In this document: positions 30,245 to 45,068 of the stretch, piece after piece
Layout of the letters: each line of letters starts with the position of its first letter
Position numbering within the stretch: position 1 is the stretch's first letter
Assembly: GCF_005222225.1 (NCBI RefSeq)
Contig: NZ_CP036536.1
Location: forward strand, 2,256,001-2,320,000
Direction of reading: 5' to 3'
From: Salinimonas lutimaris
GTDB lineage: Bacteria; Pseudomonadota; Gammaproteobacteria; Enterobacterales; Alteromonadaceae
DNA: 64,000 bases
Translations under genes and position numbers: made by a program
Notes under the pieces: generated by a model
Databases searched by the model: none
Told to the model about the DNA's origin: nothing
The model's input: the letters and a program-made list of their open reading frames with translations, nothing else

Positions 30245-31710
30245 GATAATTCCTGGCGAATATCCTGACTAATACTGTCTAAATCTTCGCTGAGACGTTC
30301 AACGCTTTCAGCATGACAGGACACCTTGTTGGTGATGGTGATGATAGATGTCACTTTTGCATCTACATCGCCGGCAACTTCTCCCTGTTGCTGGCTTGCA
30401 TGCGCTATCTGCTGGTTCATTTCATTGATAGTAGCAAATTCGGCAATGATTTCCTGCAGCGCACCGATTGCATGGGTTGAATCAGCAATAGTTTCGCTTA
30501 GCAACGCACGGGTTGTGTCCATCAATCCGTTTGCTTCTTCAGTAGATTTTTGCAGGTTATTGATGATCCGCTCAATTTCGGTTGTGGAATCTTGCGTACG
30601 CTGAGCCAGCGCCCGGACCTCATCCGCAACGACAGCAAACCCTCGACCCTGCTCGCCGGCCCGGGCAGCTTCAATAGCCGCATTCAGCGCCAGGAGATTG
30701 GTCTGTTCGGCAATACTTTTGATCACCTCGAGCACAGAAGAGATGTCCTGACTGCGTGATTTTAAATCAGTTATTTTTTCAGACGTCTGGCTGATTTTAT
30801 CGCCCAGACTATGCACCTCATCAATGGTTCTGCGCACTTTCTGGTTTCCCTGCTCGGCCAGCCCGGCACTGGACAGCGTGGTCTGAGAGGTCCGCGCTGC
30901 GCTTTGAGCAACCTGCTGACTGGCAACCGTCATCTGACTGATGGCGACTGAGACCTGACTGATTTCATTTAACTGCTTTTGGGTTTCCTGAGCGTTGGTC
31001 GCAGTATTTTGCTTAATTTTAGCGGTACATTCCTCAAGCAGACCGGCCGCGGCAGATGTACTCACCATCAGCTTATGGATGTGACTGATAAACACATTAA
31101 AACCAGCGGCGAGCTGCCCTATCTCATCATTTGTGGTCACACTGAGTCGGCGGGTAAGATCCCCGCCGCCCCGGGCAATTTCATCCATCGCCGCACCTAT
31201 CAGCTGTACCGGGCGAGTCACAAACCGGGTCAGAATAAACCAGTTCGCCAGCTGCAGACTGAACATGAGTATCACCGCAATTACCAGCAGTGTCAGTGCC
31301 AGTGCACTGAGCAAGGCGGCATTGCTGTTCATATCAAACTGAATCACAACATGCCCGACCACCCGTTCGCCACCCCATAATACCGGCACCCGATTGCTCG
31401 ACAGATGTGGCGCGGCATTAACCAGTTCACCAGCAATGACCTTATCCCGATGATCAAGCACCTGAATAGCAGCGATATGAGGAAACTGTACAAATGAATC
31501 AAGAATATCTGCGGTCAGGGCGCTGTCATAGGCAAATACGGGCTCTTGCAGCACCACGGCCAGCGCTTTACTGGAATTTTGCATCTCATTGTGAAGACGA
31601 TTGTCAAAATAACGGTTGGCCATATAGTAGCTAACCGAAAAAATCACCAGCATAATTATTGCACACAGCGCAGACAGACCCACGAGTGATTTTTTCTGAA
31701 TTGTATTCAT
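30226..31710 (-). CDS. Methyl-accepting chemotaxis protein
   Basis: 494 residues from the chosen ATG; a GTG nine codons upstream is possible but AAGGA fits the ATG, if loosely. Topology: helix 1 about 8-30, a periplasmic domain of about 100 residues (31-130), helix 2 about 131-156, a HAMP domain with [24 protein letters not shown], then a long cytoplasmic coiled coil with the conserved hairpin tip [29 protein letters not shown]. No C-terminal CheR-binding pentapeptide is seen. The periplasmic domain is small (single Cache or four-helix type). A periplasmic binding protein gene lies 35 bp upstream in the same direction, suggesting it is the ligand carrier for this receptor. Confidence 0.93.
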
Positions 31711-37318: not shown

Positions 37319-37762
37319 ATGAAAATTTTTGAAGTACTGCGAGAAGATCACGATAAGCAGCGTTCATTGCTCAATATTCTGGCTGAAACCAGTGGGGATA
37401 CAGAAGTACGCCGGGAGTATTTTCAGCAGCTGAAAGACGAACTTGAAAGTCATGCAGTTGCCGAAGAACGGCATTTTTATTCACCGTTGATGAAGTCTGA
37501 CAGCGCGATAGAGTTATCACGACACGGCATTGCCGAACATCATGAAATTGATGAGTTAGTTGAGACACTGGAGAACACAGACATGAGTTCACCAGCCTGG
37601 CTGACGCATTTAAAAACATTAAAGGAAAAAGTAGAGCATCATCTGGCCGAAGAGGAGAAAGAGTTTTTTCAGGTTGCCGGAAAAGTGCTTTCAGAAGCCG
37701 ATAAAGACGAACTGGCCCGGGAATATCGCAAGGAAATCGAAAAGGAAAAAGAAAAACACTAA
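37319..37762 (+). CDS. Hemerythrin HHE-domain protein
   Basis: 147 residues, nearly all helix. The HHE cation-binding domain has LREDHDKQRSLL, ESHAVAEERHFYSPL, HGIAEHHEIDELV and EHHLAEEEKEFF, giving the His and Glu ligands of a di-iron centre, as in DNRLRE-type and YtfE-related proteins. Such proteins bind oxygen or nitric oxide or repair iron centres. The C-terminus is highly charged (KEIEKEKEKH). It is the first of three plus-strand genes with tight spacing (18 bp, then an overlap). Confidence 0.9.
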   Translation: MKIFEVLREDHDKQRSLLNILAETSGDTEVRREYFQQLKDELESHAVAEERHFYSPLMKSDSAIELSRHGIAEHHEIDELVETLENTDMSSPAWLTHLKTLKEKVEHHLAEEEKEFFQVAGKVLSEADKDELAREYRKEIEKEKEKH

Positions 37763-39279: not shown

Positions 39280-39306
39280 AAAAAACGGCCGAAGCCGTTT
39301 TTTTTT
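39278..39306. terminator. Bidirectional intrinsic terminator
   Basis: AAAACGGC pairs with GCCGTTTT around CGAA, with A8 before and T9 after. It ends the plus-strand DUF2254 unit and, from the other side, the minus-strand Pmp3 gene 13 bp away. Confidence 0.94.
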
Positions 39307-39318
39307 ACTCGTGTCAGA

Positions 39319-39480
39319 TTAGTCACGGGTGGCAATAATGTACACCGCATGAATAATGCCCGGAATGTAGCCTAGCAGGGTAAGCAGGATATTTATCCAG
39401 AACTGAGCGCCAATACCCACCTGCAAAAATACACCTACTGGCGGAAGTAAAATTGATAACAATATACGAATGATGTCCAT
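39319..39480 (-). CDS. YqaE/Pmp3 family membrane peptide
   Basis: 53 residues from the ATG preceded by AAGGAA; the frame extends upstream without a site. Two helices with ILLSILLPPVGVFLQVGIGAQFWINILLTLLGYIPGIIHAVY, the Pmp3/YqaE signature (LPPxGVFL and GYxPGxxHA). Members respond to salt and other stress and bind membranes. It is separated by 59 bp from the start of the truncated hemoglobin gene, running in the same direction, so it could be the last gene of that operon. Confidence 0.93.
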   Translation of the reverse strand: MDIIRILLSILLPPVGVFLQVGIGAQFWINILLTLLGYIPGIIHAVYIIATRD

Positions 39481-39539: not shown

Positions 39540-39965
39540 TCATCGATACAACATGGATGCGCGCATTGGCGCTAACTCAGCCAGGATTTTATTTCTTGTA
39601 GTATAGGGAACTCCGGCGTCCTGCATGGCATTTATTAATAACTCAACGGTCAGGTTAAAATCGCTCTCACTGATATTCATACCCTGATGCACCACCTGCA
39701 TCGACTCTCCCTGGTATTCACAGGGCCCGCCGGTTTCAACACACAGATGCTGAGCAAAATGGGTCCTGAAGCGCGCCACATCACTGCCTTTGAAGAATTT
39801 CAGAATTCTGGGCTCCTGTTCAATCCGGCTGATAAAGCGATCGGTAATGGTATAAATACCGGATAATCCGCCGACTTGCTGGTATACCGTTTCAGACTGT
39901 TGAGGCATTGCTGAACAAGCCAGAAGCAGGCCGGTTAGTAAAAGTGTTAGGCCAGGCTTCACCAT
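39540..39965 (-). CDS. Truncated hemoglobin (group 1) lipoprotein
   Basis: 141 residues. The N-terminus is a lipoprotein signal (LLLTGLLLACSAM, lipidated Cys about 17), so the globin is membrane-anchored in the periplasm, unusual for globins. The globin core reads YQQVGGLSGIYTITDRFISRI, HFAQHLCVETGGPCEYQG and VVHQGMNISESDFN, where the His of VVHQGM is the proximal F8 ligand. A pair of cysteines in LCVETGGPC is common in this subfamily. Group 1 globins bind O2 or NO. It overlaps the DUF3034 gene by seven bases, the third step in a four-gene overlapping operon. Confidence 0.88.
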   Translation of the reverse strand: MVKPGLTLLLTGLLLACSAMPQQSETVYQQVGGLSGIYTITDRFISRIEQEPRILKFFKGSDVARFRTHFAQHLCVETGGPCEYQGESMQVVHQGMNISESDFNLTVELLINAMQDAGVPYTTRNKILAELAPMRASMLYR

Positions 39966-40834
39966 AACTGGCCCCCTAAAGACAGGTAGATTCCCTGCTG
40001 ATCATCCAGTCCGGCAACCGAGCCCAGGTCTACCCAGGCCATCGTAATATTGAATAATTTGGAGGGAATATATGTAACAAATACATCCCTGATAGCAGAT
40101 TCTCCTATTGCCAGATTATCTGGCCGCTGGCGGTATTCAATGCCAATAGCAAGATGATCTGATAACAGCACCGCCGCACTGCCTTCGCCGACCAGTTTGC
40201 GGTTGTGCCCCTGTTGATTGCCAAAACCCAGTAAGCCCAGCTGATTAGCATCGGTATAGCGAATGGTTGCATTCCACACCAGGTTGTAACCGGCCACCAT
40301 GCCAAGATGCACCCGTGTGGCCGCCAGATACCAGTCTGTGCCGCTGGTGTGCAATACGCCCAGGCTGGAAGCAATGTGACTGTCCTGCAGGTGTTTATAT
40401 TGAATACCAGCGCTGACCTGTGGCCAGGCAGAGTAGACAACATCGCCATAAAGCCGGATTTTTGCGCCGGCCACGGTTTGTGCAATATTGGTATTTAATG
40501 GTTTTACATCCAGATTAAGCCGGGCCAGAGAGATCTCTACCCGATCATAAAACGACAACGCAGCACCAAAACTGTTCAATCTGAAGTCATCAACACTCAG
40601 GCGGGTAGCATAGGCGGTAGCAGACGTTTGTGAGCGGCTGTCATAACCGGTCAGCGTGGCCCAGGGCACCACACCACCGCCGCCGCTGCCCTCAATCTGG
40701 AGCAGACCGGCTGTAGCGATAATTTTACCGGTACCGGCGCAGGCATTGAAGCCACAAAAAAGCAACAGCCAAATTAGTGCGTAGCCGGCACTTTTTCGGC
40801 TTGCTGTTTCAGGTATGGTGTACGCTTGAGCCAT
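39959..40834 (-). CDS. DUF3034 family outer-membrane-type protein
   Basis: 291 residues. A signal peptide (ALIWLLLFCGFNACAGTG) is followed by the DUF3034 pattern: LLQIEGSGGGGVVPWATLTGYDS, RLSVDDFRLNSFGAALSFYDRVEISLARL, and later KIRLYGDVVYSAWPQVSAGIQYK and HLAIGIEYRQRPDNL; it ends in YLSLGGQLW, an aromatic end typical of beta barrels. Probably a small outer-membrane barrel of unknown role. The first 60 bases overlap the end of the GGDEF/EAL gene, a long overlap; AAGGA sits nine bases before the ATG. Confidence 0.88.
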   Translation of the reverse strand: MAQAYTIPETASRKSAGYALIWLLLFCGFNACAGTGKIIATAGLLQIEGSGGGGVVPWATLTGYDSRSQTSATAYATRLSVDDFRLNSFGAALSFYDRVEISLARLNLDVKPLNTNIAQTVAGAKIRLYGDVVYSAWPQVSAGIQYKHLQDSHIASSLGVLHTSGTDWYLAATRVHLGMVAGYNLVWNATIRYTDANQLGLLGFGNQQGHNRKLVGEGSAAVLLSDHLAIGIEYRQRPDNLAIGESAIRDVFVTYIPSKLFNITMAWVDLGSVAGLDDQQGIYLSLGGQLW

Positions 40835-43113
40835 AAAAGCATGTCCTTAACCGACTGTGGCTTGCTGATATAATAACCTTGCGCCATGGTGCATCCCCAG
40901 TCCTGTAATATGTTGAGCGCCTGCTCATCTTCCACGCCTTCGGCAATGACATTGAGCTCAAAAATAGCCGCCAGAGACAGCACTGTATGCACAATACGCT
41001 GATCATCAGTATCATTAGACAGATTCAGTACAAAGCTTTTATCAATTTTTAGTGTGTCTACCGGCAGGTTTTTCAGGTAGGCCAGTGATGAGTAGCCTGT
41101 ACCAAAGTCATCTATTGCCAGTTTGTGGCCGGCTTCTTTCAGTCTGCTCAACGTTTCACTGGCTTGCCTGGCATCAGCCAGCAAATCACTTTCGGTGATT
41201 TCAAGTGCCAGATCTGCCGGGGTGAGCCCATGCTCTTCCAGTGTTCTGCTCATCATTGTCAGCAGAGCCTCATTCTGAATATCCTGAGAAGAAAGATTAA
41301 TTGCAACGGTGAAGGTATATCCTGCCCGCCGGAACTCAGCCAGTTCCCTGATGGTGCGGCGAATAACCCACTGGCTGACTTGCTCAATCAGGCCGGCTTT
41401 TTCTGCGATGCCAATAAATTCATCCGGCGGTACAAACCCCAGCTTGGCGTTATTCCAGCGAATCAATGCTTCCATGCTCACTACCTGCATCGTGCGTAAT
41501 GCCAGTTTAGGCTGATAGACCATGGATAATTCATCCCCATCCGCCGCCAGAGACTGTTTGAGTTCGGTAATAATAGACAAACGCCGCAGATATTGTTCCT
41601 CCAGCGACGTTTCATATCGCACCAGCCAGCGATTGCTACGATAGGCTTCATCAAAAATAATATTAATCTTACGAAATACATCTTCCGCATCATCAATATT
41701 TTGTGGACACCAAATTTCGGCGATCTGAATTTTGACCGGAATAATTAATGTGGAACGCTCAATGGGCTGTTCAAGAATCAGTCTGAGGGTTTCCAGCTGT
41801 ATTTCCTCAAGTGGCTCATCAGGGATATACAAAATCTCCCCACCGGACAAACGGGCACAAATTCCAGGCCAGCGTAGTAAGCGTGTTGAAAGGGTTTTAA
41901 TACAAAAATCCCCGTTTGCATAACCGTATAAGTCGTTGATGGTCCTGAAACCGACAACTTTGATAGCCAGCACCTGAAATGAGCGGCTGTTCTGCAGTTT
42001 TTCATTGACCATGACCTCCGCTCTGGCCCTGTTGATCATCCCGGTTAACGCATCATGCTCAGCCTGATAGCGTATCCGAGTTTCACGCTCACGGATCTGT
42101 ACCTGCATCTTTTCAAAGGTAGTGGCAAAATGGGCTAGCTCGCTGACGTTGGCATCAATAGTCACGCTCTGGGTATAATCCCCCCGGGCGATGTTGTGCG
42201 CCGCAGCTAATAACTGATCGACCGGCTCGCTAAGCTTTCGCGCCTGATACATGCCAACCGCGAGCGCCAGTGCAATGCCGGAAAGTGCCATCAACAGCAC
42301 ATTAAGTTGCAAATCCAGAAACTGATCCAGTACAGGGCGAACATCATGGGCAATATACACATTAATGCCATCAGGCAAGCTTCCACCAGTCAGCGCTGCC
42401 CGCACCATATAGCCTGACGTCTGTTGCAAGGTAACATCAATCCAGTTCAGACTCTGGCTTCCCTGTAGCACGGTCATGGTAGTAAGCTGAGTGAGACTTG
42501 AGGCAATCACCGCTTCAGGCTGGCTGTTACTGCCCAGCACAATCATAATCTCAGAATGCACAACCTGTGACAGACGACGCAAAAATATGTCATCCAGTTT
42601 AAATCCGACACCGGCAATCTGAGTGACACCGGCCTTTTTCACCGGCAACATTATCAGCTGATAAAGTTGACCATCTAAAAACCGGTATGCCTGTGTGCCA
42701 CCGGTGCTGTAAATATTCTCAATGAAGGTTTGATCGCGAAGCATACCGTTGTAATCAAAACATGGCGATACCGAACAGGTCATAGAATAGTTACTGTTAA
42801 TGGTAAACAAAATATCGGCCCCAATCCGGCCAGCATGATTACCCAGAGCCGACTGAAGGGTGTCTGCATCCTGTGTGGCCAGGGCCTGAATAAAGCCAAA
42901 GTCGGCAGTCAGCACATGGGCAGCCGTGAGCAGCTGATTTTGACGCTCAATCAAAGTTTCATTTAATACGGTAGAGGCAATTTCGAGACTTTCGCCAGTC
43001 TGTGTTTTGACCAGATTGGTGGCTGCGCTCCAGACCACAAATAAAATCACGGTGGCGGTGATAATAATACCACCGAGCAAAATACGTATTATCCGTTGAT
43101 TAAAACTGAGCAT
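40774..43113 (-). CDS. Membrane c-di-GMP phosphodiesterase: sensor-HAMP-degenerate GGDEF-EAL
   Basis: 779 residues. Helix 1 about 9-30; a large periplasmic sensing domain (31-265, Cache-like, with two cysteines in CSVSPC); helix 2 about 269-290; HAMP (291-345); a GGDEF-like domain (345-500) whose active motif is SGGEIL at 423-428, so cyclase activity is unlikely; and an intact EAL domain (515-770) with MEALIRW (EAL 548-550), INLSSQDIQ, LEITESDLL, DDFGTGYSSL (668-677), LKIDKSF and EGVEDEQ, so phosphodiesterase activity is expected. The start overlaps the cupredoxin gene by 14 bp and the end overlaps DUF3034 by 60 bp. It would turn a periplasmic signal into lower c-di-GMP. Confidence 0.92.
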   Translation of the reverse strand: MLSFNQRIIRILLGGIIITATVILFVVWSAATNLVKTQTGESLEIASTVLNETLIERQNQLLTAAHVLTADFGFIQALATQDADTLQSALGNHAGRIGADILFTINSNYSMTCSVSPCFDYNGMLRDQTFIENIYSTGGTQAYRFLDGQLYQLIMLPVKKAGVTQIAGVGFKLDDIFLRRLSQVVHSEIMIVLGSNSQPEAVIASSLTQLTTMTVLQGSQSLNWIDVTLQQTSGYMVRAALTGGSLPDGINVYIAHDVRPVLDQFLDLQLNVLLMALSGIALALAVGMYQARKLSEPVDQLLAAAHNIARGDYTQSVTIDANVSELAHFATTFEKMQVQIRERETRIRYQAEHDALTGMINRARAEVMVNEKLQNSRSFQVLAIKVVGFRTINDLYGYANGDFCIKTLSTRLLRWPGICARLSGGEILYIPDEPLEEIQLETLRLILEQPIERSTLIIPVKIQIAEIWCPQNIDDAEDVFRKINIIFDEAYRSNRWLVRYETSLEEQYLRRLSIITELKQSLAADGDELSMVYQPKLALRTMQVVSMEALIRWNNAKLGFVPPDEFIGIAEKAGLIEQVSQWVIRRTIRELAEFRRAGYTFTVAINLSSQDIQNEALLTMMSRTLEEHGLTPADLALEITESDLLADARQASETLSRLKEAGHKLAIDDFGTGYSSLAYLKNLPVDTLKIDKSFVLNLSNDTDDQRIVHTVLSLAAIFELNVIAEGVEDEQALNILQDWGCTMAQGYYISKPQSVKDMLLWLKRTPYLKQQAEKVPATH

Positions 43114-43753
43114 CAGGCCGATTCCAGGTCAATGAAACATCGCCAAAAGAACGGCTGCCGAAGGTACGCGAAGCAGGTTTAATTTCGGGTTTTAGCGCAA
43201 TCACAATTTGCTGACTAATCGGGACAGTCACCGATTCAGTGCCACTCACCGATAGCCGGGGATGCCAGACACTGGCCTGGGTGAGAGTATCCGGTATTAT
43301 CGCCTCTCCCTGCTGATTAGTCTGCCAGGCTTGGGAGCCAGGGCTGACAAAAATGAATCCTTTCATCTGATCATGAATATTGCAGGCGAGCGACACCACG
43401 CCGGGCTGATTAAAAACAACGTCAGGTTCGCGTGAATCGCCATACAACGACAGCTCAAATGTTTTTGTCTGCGAAAAGCTGTAAACATGATGTCGGATAT
43501 TGTCGCTATTGGGAAAACGAACCGTCTGGCCTTGCTGTATCAACAAAGTGGAAGGAAGAAACTGTTTATTTTTCTGATCCATTACGCGCAGCCTAGAAGA
43601 TTCATCCACCGCACTGTTGGCAACAAAAATAATCGCATCAGGCACCGGCAACCCTTGCTCATCAAGCACCGATATCGACCGCGTAGCCGCACTGACACTG
43701 CAAACACTTAGCAGGCAAAAGGACACCAATAACCTTAGAATACACCACCTCAC
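43100..43753 (-). CDS. Secreted cupredoxin-like (methylamine-utilisation type) copper protein
   Basis: 217 residues with a signal peptide (LLVSFCLLSVCSVSAA). The first domain (about 25-70) is a beta sandwich with SVLDEQGLPVPDAIIFV; the cupredoxin follows (70-140), with the type 1 copper set His88/89 (IRHHVYSF), Cys124, His127 and Met130 in ACNIHDQM. A further beta region (145-190) ends in TWNRPDAQF. Such proteins are annotated as methylamine utilisation MauL-type electron carriers, but no methylamine dehydrogenase is nearby. The start is GTG at 43753 by default; a GTG nine codons later after AAGG is possible but would damage the signal peptide. First gene of the EAL/DUF3034/globin operon. Confidence 0.85.
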   Translation of the reverse strand: MRWCILRLLVSFCLLSVCSVSAATRSISVLDEQGLPVPDAIIFVANSAVDESSRLRVMDQKNKQFLPSTLLIQQGQTVRFPNSDNIRHHVYSFSQTKTFELSLYGDSREPDVVFNQPGVVSLACNIHDQMKGFIFVSPGSQAWQTNQQGEAIIPDTLTQASVWHPRLSVSGTESVTVPISQQIVIALKPEIKPASRTFGSRSFGDVSLTWNRPDAQF

Positions 43754-44117
43754 TCACAACAACAGCCACACCAGTGCACCGCAAAACTCCAGTAACAGCT
43801 TTAAATATAGAACAAGATTATGGGTTAGCGAGAAAGAAACTAAGAATTGCCGCAACGCCGCGAGATAGCTCAGTATAGCTGCTTTAAAGCAGGGTGAGTA
43901 ACGTGGAGTAACGTGGACAGTCACTTCGAACGCTTTGAAGCAGGGTGAGTAGCTTGGAGTAACTTGGACAGTCACTTCTCTGAGCAAATCGGACAGTCAC
44001 TTTTTAATCAAGATGAGCGAAGCATTAACCAAGACATTCGCCCCTACTGACGTACAGTTGGATTTTTAGTCAACTCATGCACAATCGTTCAATGGTACTT
44101 TTCTTTCTTCAAACGAT
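43754..44117. other. Intergenic region with repeats upstream of the transposase
   Basis: 364 bp. It holds the leader of the cupredoxin operon on one side and, from 43879, tandem repeats thought to belong to the RAYT element. The AUG-less stretch from 44003 to 44117 has no clear ribosome site before the transposase ATG. Confidence 0.5.
43879..44003 (+). repeat. Tandem REP-like repeats beside the RAYT gene
   Basis: Two 47-base units (43881-43927 and 43932-43978) differ at few positions. Each begins with GCTTTAAAGC or GCTTTGAAGC, continues CAGGGTGAGTA, contains a duplicated ten-base block (GAGTAACGTG twice, or its GAGTAGCTTG/GAGTAACTTG variant) and ends GGACAGTCACTT. A third, partial copy (GGACAGTCACTT, 43991-44002) follows. 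The first unit sits in a 14-base palindrome CTGCTTTAAAGCAG. Confidence 0.8.
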
Positions 44118-45068
44118 ATGCCCAGACCTCGTAAGTGTCTTATCAATTTAGCAGATACATCTTATTACCACTGCGTGTCTCGCTGTGTTCGAAGGGCATT
44201 TCTATGTGGTAAAGATAAGTTGACCGGAAAATGTTACGAGCATCGCCGCCAATGGGTAGAGGACAGAATACTGCTGCTGGCTGAAATATTCTGTGTGGAT
44301 GTGTGTGCTTATGCCGTCATGAATAACCACACTCATCTGGTATTACGCATTAATAAAGTCAAAGCAGATGCGTTATCTGTCGATGAAATTATCCACCGAT
44401 GGCGCAAATTGTACAAAGGTGTGCTGTTAATCCAGCGGTATAGTGACCCTTGTCAACGCGAAGTATTATCGGAGGCAGAAATTGCGACAGTAAAGAGTAT
44501 CGCTGAGGTTTATCGTCACCGTCTCTACGACATTAGCTGGTTTATGCGGTTACTTAATGAATATATTGCTCGCCTGGCCAATAAGGAAGATGATTGTACT
44601 GGCCACTTCTGGGAAGGGCGATTTAAATCGCAGGCCTTACTAGATGAAACTGCGCTGGCTGCCTGTATGGCCTACGTGGATTTAAATCCAGTCCGGGCTC
44701 AACTGGCGGATACAATCGAGAAGTCTTCACACACAAGCATTTGTAAACGCATCAGAGCTGCCAGGGTGAAGCGCCAACCAACCCAACTGCTTCCCTTTGC
44801 GGATAAACTGAAAAATACAAGGTCCGATGGATTACCTTTCCAACTTGAGGACTACTTCGCATTGGTAGAGTCAACCTGCCGGCACTTTCGTCCTAAAAAG
44901 CGAGATAAAATTGATGATACAGTCTCACCCATTCTTACTCGTGTTGGGTTAGAGCATACTGACTGGCATGCGATAGTATCTGGAATCGAAACAGAGTTTA
45001 GAACAAACGTCAGTCATGAAGATTTTATACGTAACCGTAACAAGCAACGAACATATAACTCAGTCTGA
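44118..45068 (+). mobile_element. REP-associated tyrosine transposase (RAYT, Y1 family)
   Basis: 316-residue Y1 (IS200/IS605-like HUH) transposase. The start MPRPRKCLINLADTSYYHCVSRCVRRAFLCG is the typical opening of Alteromonadales and Shewanella members. The HUH motif is in MNNHTHLVLRI (His-x-His) and the catalytic Tyr is in AYVDLNPVRA or just upstream; FWEGRFKSQALLDE is the family core motif. RAYTs process nearby REP sequences and are usually single-copy and domesticated. Tandem repeats precede it and a matching GCTTTAAAGC lies 143 bp after it. Length is intact, so activity is possible. It is flanked by the cupredoxin operon and tRNA-Leu. Confidence 0.9.

Follow-up and report, generated by a model that had tools for sequence, protein, structure and literature searches.

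Why would an enzyme of cyclic di-GMP (c-di-GMP) turnover be encoded in one block with a blue copper protein, a predicted outer-membrane barrel and a globin? The question is raised by a locus of Salinimonas lutimaris, whose genome is one contig of 4.12 Mb and of which we analyzed a 64,000-nt stretch (NZ_CP036536.1, positions 2,256,001 to 2,320,000; the window, to whose coordinates positions refer unless stated). Four minus-strand open reading frames (ORFs) at 39540-43753 encode, in this order, a copper protein, an EAL-domain protein (EAL protein), a DUF3034 protein and a globin. An original prediction had described them as overlapping genes with a shared function, and all of the ORFs were found there. 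Every junction overlaps, by 14, 61 and 7 bp from the ORF coordinates; the outer two values agree with the prediction, which had given 60 bp for the middle one. The 61-bp overlap of the EAL and DUF3034 genes looks genuine, since the ATG at 40834 is the sole ATG, GTG or TTG start that retains the RK n-region of the DUF3034 signal peptide and AAGGA is positioned 9 nt 5´ of it. Signal peptides read from the sequence, together with a lipobox for the globin, predict that the copper protein, DUF3034 and the globin are exported. The sequence comparisons that follow give good support to a single system that the four genes share, facing the envelope and having a predicted phosphodiesterase that is intact.

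Of 196 same-family genomes, 108 carry DUF3034; the figure for the class is 15 of 274 and for the phylum 24 of 299. We fetched 152 DUF3034 loci, 72 without and 80 with an organism name (the latter being the closest 80 of 575 confirmed), and scored their gene content with profiles of all four proteins, counting partners up to 5.5 kb from where the DUF3034 frame starts. With the window included, the 153 loci gave 139 distinct DUF3034 sequences, since the two locus sets overlap; L111, where DUF3034 is a fragment under the score threshold, was excluded. The full set, in the order copper protein-EAL-DUF3034-globin, was kept at 98 of the 139 loci, a number of them having additional EAL genes or short flanks. 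Conservation extends well beyond the genus, and the restriction to it that would have refuted the original prediction is not seen. The gene order is conserved far beyond chance expectation, and the globin gene was within 140 bp of DUF3034 at 132 of the 139 loci. As the loci were picked for holding DUF3034, percentages of gene order are not population estimates, and the 299-genome phylum sample is less biased. The named loci come from Alteromonas, Paraglaciecola, Colwellia, Pseudoalteromonas, Marinomonas, Methylophaga, Hahella, Thalassolituus, Pseudomonas, Rheinheimera and Pseudoxanthomonas, and the whole set is carried by many cultured, named strains, isolates of Pseudoalteromonas, Colwellia and Alteromonas among them.

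Incomplete sets were also seen. Thirteen of the 139 loci have the copper protein, DUF3034 and the globin with no adjacent EAL gene, eight have EAL-DUF3034-globin without a copper gene (two with short flanks), and a further eight comprise five where DUF3034 stands by itself (short flanks in two), two in which the arrangement is inverted and one that is truncated ahead of the globin. At L145 and L179, both counted as being without a copper gene, the copper gene is located ~6-7 kb upstream of DUF3034, and an EAL gene is also further upstream, with other genes intervening. Four loci (L055-L058) carry a distant DUF3034 branch without a globin or copper protein nearby, and three of the four genomes gave no copper-protein match at E 1e-10. 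DUF3034 is a fragment at L111 (genome G451) and stop-interrupted at L110 (G360); given this damage, the system may be in the process of being lost in some lineages. An AhpD-like gene was noted 3´ of the set in three Marinomonas loci that we viewed. Finally, distance matrices of the four proteins at the 98 complete loci were correlated (0.69-0.86), which we set aside as reflecting shared inheritance only.

The association was also apparent genome-wide. The copper protein (E <=1e-10, best 8 candidates per genome scored, such that absence is not proof) was detected in 23 of the 24 phylum genomes with DUF3034 vs 16 of the 275 without, an odds ratio of 372 (n = 299). It was within ~4 kb of DUF3034 in 19 of the 23 (in G697 by way of a second, weaker match) and away from it in G317, G665, G677 and G712. 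A strong globin match (E <1e-30, best 12 candidates scored, with the same limit on absence) was found in all 24, within ~210 bp of DUF3034, vs 1 of the 275 others, an infinite odds ratio. Because the 299 genomes are related, Fisher p-values for these comparisons are not independent-sample values. Among the same-family genomes, strong matches to the dCache profile of the EAL family (E <1e-45) were present in 92 of the 108 with DUF3034 vs 10 of the 88 others; this threshold and that for the globin were chosen after viewing the gaps in the match lists.

We then turned to 20 genomes in which DUF3034 has no copper gene next to it, reading the locus in 16 and taking the split status of G358, G417, G426 and G462 from coordinates. 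In all 16 same-family genomes that lack the copper gene beside DUF3034 it was present elsewhere in the genome, and in 12 of these an EAL gene was directly beside it (judged by position for L234). The lone-DUF3034 distant genomes G026, G156, G259 and G267 gave one weak copper-protein match (5.5e-15) and three with none. At L212, L227 and L232, where EAL is together with DUF3034-globin, the separate copper gene has on one side a gene that by eye resembles thiol peroxidase and on the other a divergent gene of ~420 amino acids whose product looks exported. Three same-family genomes with the copper protein-DUF3034-globin arrangement were also examined; G291 and G432 keep an EAL gene of the same family elsewhere (851 and 924 bits), and G347 has only a remote relative.

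Permuted sets were found on plasmids of Beta- and Alphaproteobacteria. We inspected 5 of the 13 plasmid records that matched the copper protein. Three from Caballeronia have the order DUF3034-globin-copper protein-EAL (SBC1 retains only an EAL fragment), in one from Novosphingobium the DUF3034-globin and copper protein-EAL pairs stand back to back, and in one from Comamonas the order is DUF4394-copper protein-EAL, without an annotated DUF3034 in the inspected stretch. The plasmid and locus arrangements suggest that DUF3034-globin and copper protein-EAL move as modules, mostly together. We also found copper protein-EAL without DUF3034 or globin at L198, L204, L205, L206 and L211; in all of these but L198 the pair adjoins a barrel-like protein of 400-420 amino acids, with all Pfam barrel matches under cut-offs, and DUF4394 genes are directly 5´ of the copper-protein genes at L198 and L210 (the Comamonas plasmid and G595). 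Thus, DUF3034-globin appears to be a nearly inseparable pair and copper protein-EAL a second pair, the two being kept together across Pseudomonadota, and it is the copper protein that can be found with each of the partners, with EAL in the absence of DUF3034 and globin or with DUF3034-globin in the absence of EAL. Gene order, plasmid permutations and the retention of components where the locus is split together give strong support to the shared function that had been predicted.

What do the four products look like individually? Residue conservation was counted over distinct homologues above bit thresholds (globin 80, copper protein 100, EAL 700, DUF3034 200) and of sufficient length, with weaker relatives, chiefly divergent EAL proteins, excluded. 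The EAL protein (40774..43113, minus strand, 779 amino acids) is a predicted inner-membrane protein for which Pfam gave dCache_3 (E = 6.9e-7), HAMP (2.7e-6), GGDEF (1.6e-11) and EAL (1.3e-69) matches. A membrane phosphodiesterase with a large periplasmic domain had been claimed; the EAL catalytic domain (residues 519-752, 40858..41559, minus strand) and the putative periplasmic dCache_3 sensor domain (residues 41-241, 42391..42993, minus strand) were both found, together with the HAMP and GGDEF domains that the claim had left out. E548, N606, E638, E641, D668, D669, K689, E725 and Q745, which are catalytic or metal-binding positions, are each present in 104 of 104 homologues. The GGDEF signature of the window protein is degenerate (SGGEI) and does not conform to the GG(D/E)EF of an active diguanylate cyclase; the motif is kept in 35 of the 104 homologues and lost in 69. 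With the EAL catalytic positions intact and GGDEF degenerate, the expected output is c-di-GMP breakdown, and we predict that the protein is a c-di-GMP phosphodiesterase with an intact site. In the dCache domain, T85, L90 and R96 are present in 104 of 104 homologues, and a comparison of this region with solved structures gave no match at E 1.

The copper protein (43100..43753, minus strand, 217 amino acids, GTG start) was less readily recognized. By sequence alone, the Pfam cupredoxin match (19.5 bits) is under the cut-off of 27, and a sequence profile run against the PDB returned nothing decisive. The predicted structure (predicted local distance difference test score, pLDDT, of 89) did match solved folds, the best with Z 11.9 and a root-mean-square deviation of 1.9 Å over 90 residues, and the NirK cupredoxin domain, plastocyanins and amicyanins were the top matches (Z 10-12). 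In the model, the cupredoxin domain corresponds to residues ~53-138. The ligands H88, C124 and H127 are found in 115 of 115 distinct homologues, counting the window, and M130 in 114, delimiting a type-1 copper ligand stretch with a CxxHxxM loop at 43364..43492 (minus strand). A secreted blue copper protein had been proposed, and the modeled fold and conserved H-C-H-M set bear this out, predicting a type-1 copper protein that binds copper. The short loop is amicyanin-like. The protein shares the fold, ligands and loop with amicyanin, plastocyanin and pseudoazurin, but differs in being encoded with a c-di-GMP enzyme and in that its cupredoxin part sits between the strands of an apparent second beta unit. 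Indeed, the model has beta strands flanking the cupredoxin part on both sides, which suggests insertion into an immunoglobulin- or carboxypeptidase-regulatory-like unit; CarboxypepD_reg and Big_1 each gave weak matches in 2 of 35 family members. Following the cupredoxin part there is a near-invariant W163-H164 (W in 114 and H in 105 of 115 homologues). Most annotated plasmid homologues carry the RefSeq label 'methylamine utilization protein'. No methylamine genes were seen near, and no mau family was among the scanned window genes (mau families were not searched at other loci).

For DUF3034 (39959..40834, minus strand, 291 amino acids), the Pfam match is strong (PF11231, 329.3 bits against a cut-off of 25, E = 2.3e-98) and the N-terminal segment EGxxGGGxxPWA is conserved. 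The model (pLDDT 75) has 12 strands, in line with the barrel-type protein of the original prediction, and we regard it as a predicted outer-membrane beta-barrel. It resembles outer-membrane barrels generally, with FapF at the top (Z 19.6, 9% identity), followed by KdgM, NanC and FadL-type channels, all of the listed barrel matches being at <=14% identity. Kinship with FapF was considered, but at 9% identity and with other barrels close behind, we did not read the match as homology.

The globin (39540..39965, minus strand, 141 amino acids) matched Bac_globin at 63.8 bits (cut-off 21, E = 2.2e-17) and is predicted to be an exported group-1 truncated globin. Its lipobox is LLLAC, ending in C17, with Ser at +2, and this motif, the profile match and the proximal His H93 agree with the lipoprotein globin that had been predicted. 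C75, C82 and H93 are present in 132 of 132 homologues and C17 in 120; the Caballeronia plasmid globins appear to be secreted without a lipobox. Across the four products, then, the copper ligands, the heme His and the EAL catalytic residues are essentially invariant.

HbN of M. tuberculosis, a group-1 truncated hemoglobin, aligns with the window globin without gaps over 114 residues and with the proximal His kept. Positions B10, E7, E10, E11 and E14 were set from this alignment and the residue numbering in PMC7082302. In all 132 globins, B10 (Ile, Val or Leu), E7 (Phe, Leu, Val or Ile) and E11 (Leu, Phe, Ile or Met) are apolar, and the Tyr B10 and polar E7/E11 of HbN-type nitric oxide (NO) dioxygenation were found in none of them. 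E14, described as a highly conserved heme-shielding Phe (PMC7082302), is His or Gln in 121 of the 132. Given these residues, the pocket is not that expected of an NO dioxygenase. These globins thus differ from HbN in their export, their invariant C75/C82 pair, their apolar B10/E7/E11 and, in most, the His or Gln at E14. The heme of algal THB1 is coordinated by LysE10 (PMC7082302), and we considered a Lys or His at E10 as a sixth ligand here. The window globin has His at this position, but E10 varies (Lys in 64, Gly in 31, Leu in 11 and His in 8 of 132), and such coordination therefore cannot be a shared mechanism. A second globin gene is present in the host genome, at genome position 30944-31300.

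How might these parts work together? Judging by gene content, the copper protein would be the joint between the inner-membrane enzyme and the outer-membrane protein, and we have therefore placed it at the center of the mechanism. The reading that we prefer, held tentatively and at somewhat short of an even chance, is that the operon senses conditions in the envelope and adjusts c-di-GMP through a relay of metalloproteins, from the outer membrane to the copper protein to dCache. In this scheme, a small ligand that is redox-active or binds heme would reach the globin, which would itself be held next to the DUF3034 barrel at the outer membrane. The result would then cross the periplasm with the soluble copper protein, as electrons or as copper bound or unbound, and binding of this protein to dCache would switch the EAL phosphodiesterase and, with it, the balance of motility and attachment. 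A more specific version, in which the barrel-held globin passes electrons to the copper protein, whose oxidized or reduced form docks on dCache and sets c-di-GMP breakdown, we consider unlikely as it stands. It would make DUF3034 the outer-membrane dock of the globin. To our knowledge, no cupredoxin has been described as a signaling shuttle into c-di-GMP.

Several observations weigh against the metalloprotein relay. DUF3034-globin occurs with neither partner within 5.5 kb at 12 of the 139 loci (one with a short flank); counting from the middle of the DUF3034 frame shifts L179 and gives 13 such loci and 7 without a copper gene, not 12 and 8. Eight named Marinomonas loci are without EAL beside the set, with adjacency alone examined, and one of the 24 DUF3034 phylum genomes (G535) has no copper protein at E <=1e-10. 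Conversely, the EAL family occurs without DUF3034 in the ten of 88 genomes mentioned above, in only two of which (L243 and L245) is a copper gene adjacent, again judging by adjacency; this loose tie of the EAL gene suggests that the phosphodiesterase is able to work without the rest. Since copper protein-EAL is found with another barrel-like protein or DUF4394, the globin is also not needed for that pair. Nor did genes of NO metabolism track the set: among the 196 same-family genomes, NnrS was present in 74 of 108 with DUF3034 and 62 of 88 without. NirK over the cut-off was rarer with DUF3034 (3 of 108 vs 7 of 88), giving no NO-gene association, and the host genome has no NnrS match. Finally, a scan of the regions upstream of 113 loci for eight boxes (FNR/Dnr, Fur, NsrR, CueR, sigma-54, ArcA, NarL and CRP), compared with five block shuffles, revealed no promoter signature for the operon. 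The ArcA count was the only one over every shuffle, by a slight excess (37 vs 18-33). Fur (4 vs 0-4), CueR (6 vs 2-6) and NarL (100 vs 88-100) equaled the top shuffle, and FNR/Dnr, NsrR, sigma-54 and CRP were within or below the shuffle counts. The proposal that NO is the sensed signal is thus unsupported, given the lack of association with NnrS or NirK, the lack of excess FNR/Dnr or NsrR boxes and the apolar globin pocket. Redox or gas sensing in the broader sense is plausible, and sensing of copper redox state is a candidate that fits the data.

Other explanations account for part of these observations. DUF3034 could be a substrate-specific channel, with dCache sensing the substrate or a periplasmic product and the globin and copper protein processing it. 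This is a serious candidate, if rather unlikely: small molecules are the usual ligands of dCache domains, the porins KdgM and NanC and FadL-type channels are, besides FapF, among the structures that the DUF3034 model resembles, and the copper protein-EAL pairs without DUF3034 adjoin other barrel-like proteins (by sub-cut-off Pfam matches). The barrel matches, however, are at <=14% identity and suggest no substrate, an unsystematic look by eye at a subset of loci revealed no gene of catabolism or transport that recurs from lineage to lineage, and simple uptake would be an unusual task for a globin and a blue copper protein. The two metalloproteins are central, instead, to a role in electron transfer or detoxification, whereby the globin, with the copper protein as its electron partner, would reduce or scavenge O2, NO, peroxide or nitrite at the outer membrane and the phosphodiesterase would only be co-regulated. 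Electron transfer is the usual role of type-1 copper proteins, and the 13 loci with copper protein, DUF3034 and globin but no adjacent EAL gene are as this would predict. Exported truncated-hemoglobin domains have also been suggested to be periplasmic terminal oxidases in cable bacteria (PMC11976967). The close pairing of copper protein and EAL even at globin-less loci, a globin pocket unlike that of NO-dioxygenating HbN and the missing NnrS/NirK association nevertheless make this quite unlikely.

We regard as improbable that the system handles copper, with the copper protein storing or delivering the metal, the barrel admitting it and c-di-GMP following the supply. The strict copper ligands and the presence of PcoB, titled a copper transporter, among the DUF3034 fold matches (Z 12.6) are in its favor, but PcoB ranks 38 among generic barrels, CueR boxes, in 6 of the 113 upstream regions, only equal the top of the five shuffles, and the globin is left with no role. 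A chance or passive neighborhood with no shared function can be given almost no weight; split loci and lone EAL genes do exist, but the odds ratios for the copper protein and globin with DUF3034 come from related but diverse genomes, and complete permuted sets are present in other classes.

The genes around the operon are ordinary. Downstream, on the minus strand, a short gene 3´ of the globin gene (39319-39480) encodes a small membrane peptide that, read by eye, presumably resembles YqaE/Pmp3, and a GC-hairpin with a T run follows it near 39280-39310. The downstream neighbor of the operon is a DUF2254 membrane protein gene on the opposite strand, and a plus-strand gene at 37319-37762 gave a weak match to the PA2171 family (ribosome-binding persister protein; 57.6 bits against a cut-off of 190). 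Upstream are a REP (repetitive extragenic palindromic)-associated-transposase-like gene on the opposite strand (44118-45068; NCBIfam 40 bits, under the cut-off of 80), then secG, then a likely triosephosphate isomerase gene, identified by eye. The copper-protein gene is separated from the transposase-like gene by an imperfect direct repeat at 43881-44002 (two 47-nt copies that are 91% alike; a 21-nt unit occurs three times), which may be a REP-type element close to the promoter of the operon.

If the metalloprotein relay is correct, it would provide a function class for three poorly understood families, DUF3034, the 'methylamine utilization' cupredoxins and exported group-1 globins, and would name a testable link from the metal or redox state of the envelope to the swim-or-stick decision of marine bacteria; metal proteins of the envelope may help decide between swimming and settling. 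Since many cultured strains carry the whole set, gene-deletion tests are feasible. In the literature searched, to which most subscription papers were external, we found no description of the set. No paper there combined a truncated hemoglobin and a cupredoxin with c-di-GMP, an EAL phosphodiesterase with a cupredoxin in an operon, or a methylamine utilization protein with c-di-GMP; papers naming both cupredoxins and c-di-GMP appeared unrelated, and DUF3034 itself was named once each in two papers.

Among known systems, LapD and DibA share the GGDEF-EAL architecture of the EAL protein, which scores far under both curated cut-offs (115 vs 1020 bits for LapD and 288 vs 980 for DibA) and has, unlike LapD, an intact EAL site. 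Heme proteins are genetically tied to c-di-GMP turnover in H-NOX- and NosP-coupled enzymes, DosP and globin-coupled cyclases, where the heme domains are cytoplasmic and belong to other families or are fused. Here, the heme protein is a separate exported group-1 truncated globin; no H-NOX or FIST heme domain was among the Pfam matches of the four products at E 0.001, and the EAL protein scores 230 bits against the DosP cut-off of 857. In working plan, the likeness is to YfiBNR (TpbB) of P. aeruginosa, in which an outer-membrane lipoprotein, a soluble periplasmic switch and an inner-membrane HAMP-type c-di-GMP enzyme are encoded together. This likeness extends to the plan only, an envelope signal conveyed inward to a c-di-GMP enzyme: none of the matches of the three exported products was to the YfiB or YfiR families, and the EAL protein scores 58.7 bits against a YfiN (DgcN) cut-off of 325. 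YfiN makes c-di-GMP, and YfiBNR is without a copper protein, globin or barrel, whereas here all three accompany an EAL protein predicted to break c-di-GMP down. We infer that the set may represent a variant of envelope-to-c-di-GMP signaling like that of YfiBNR, but built from metalloproteins.

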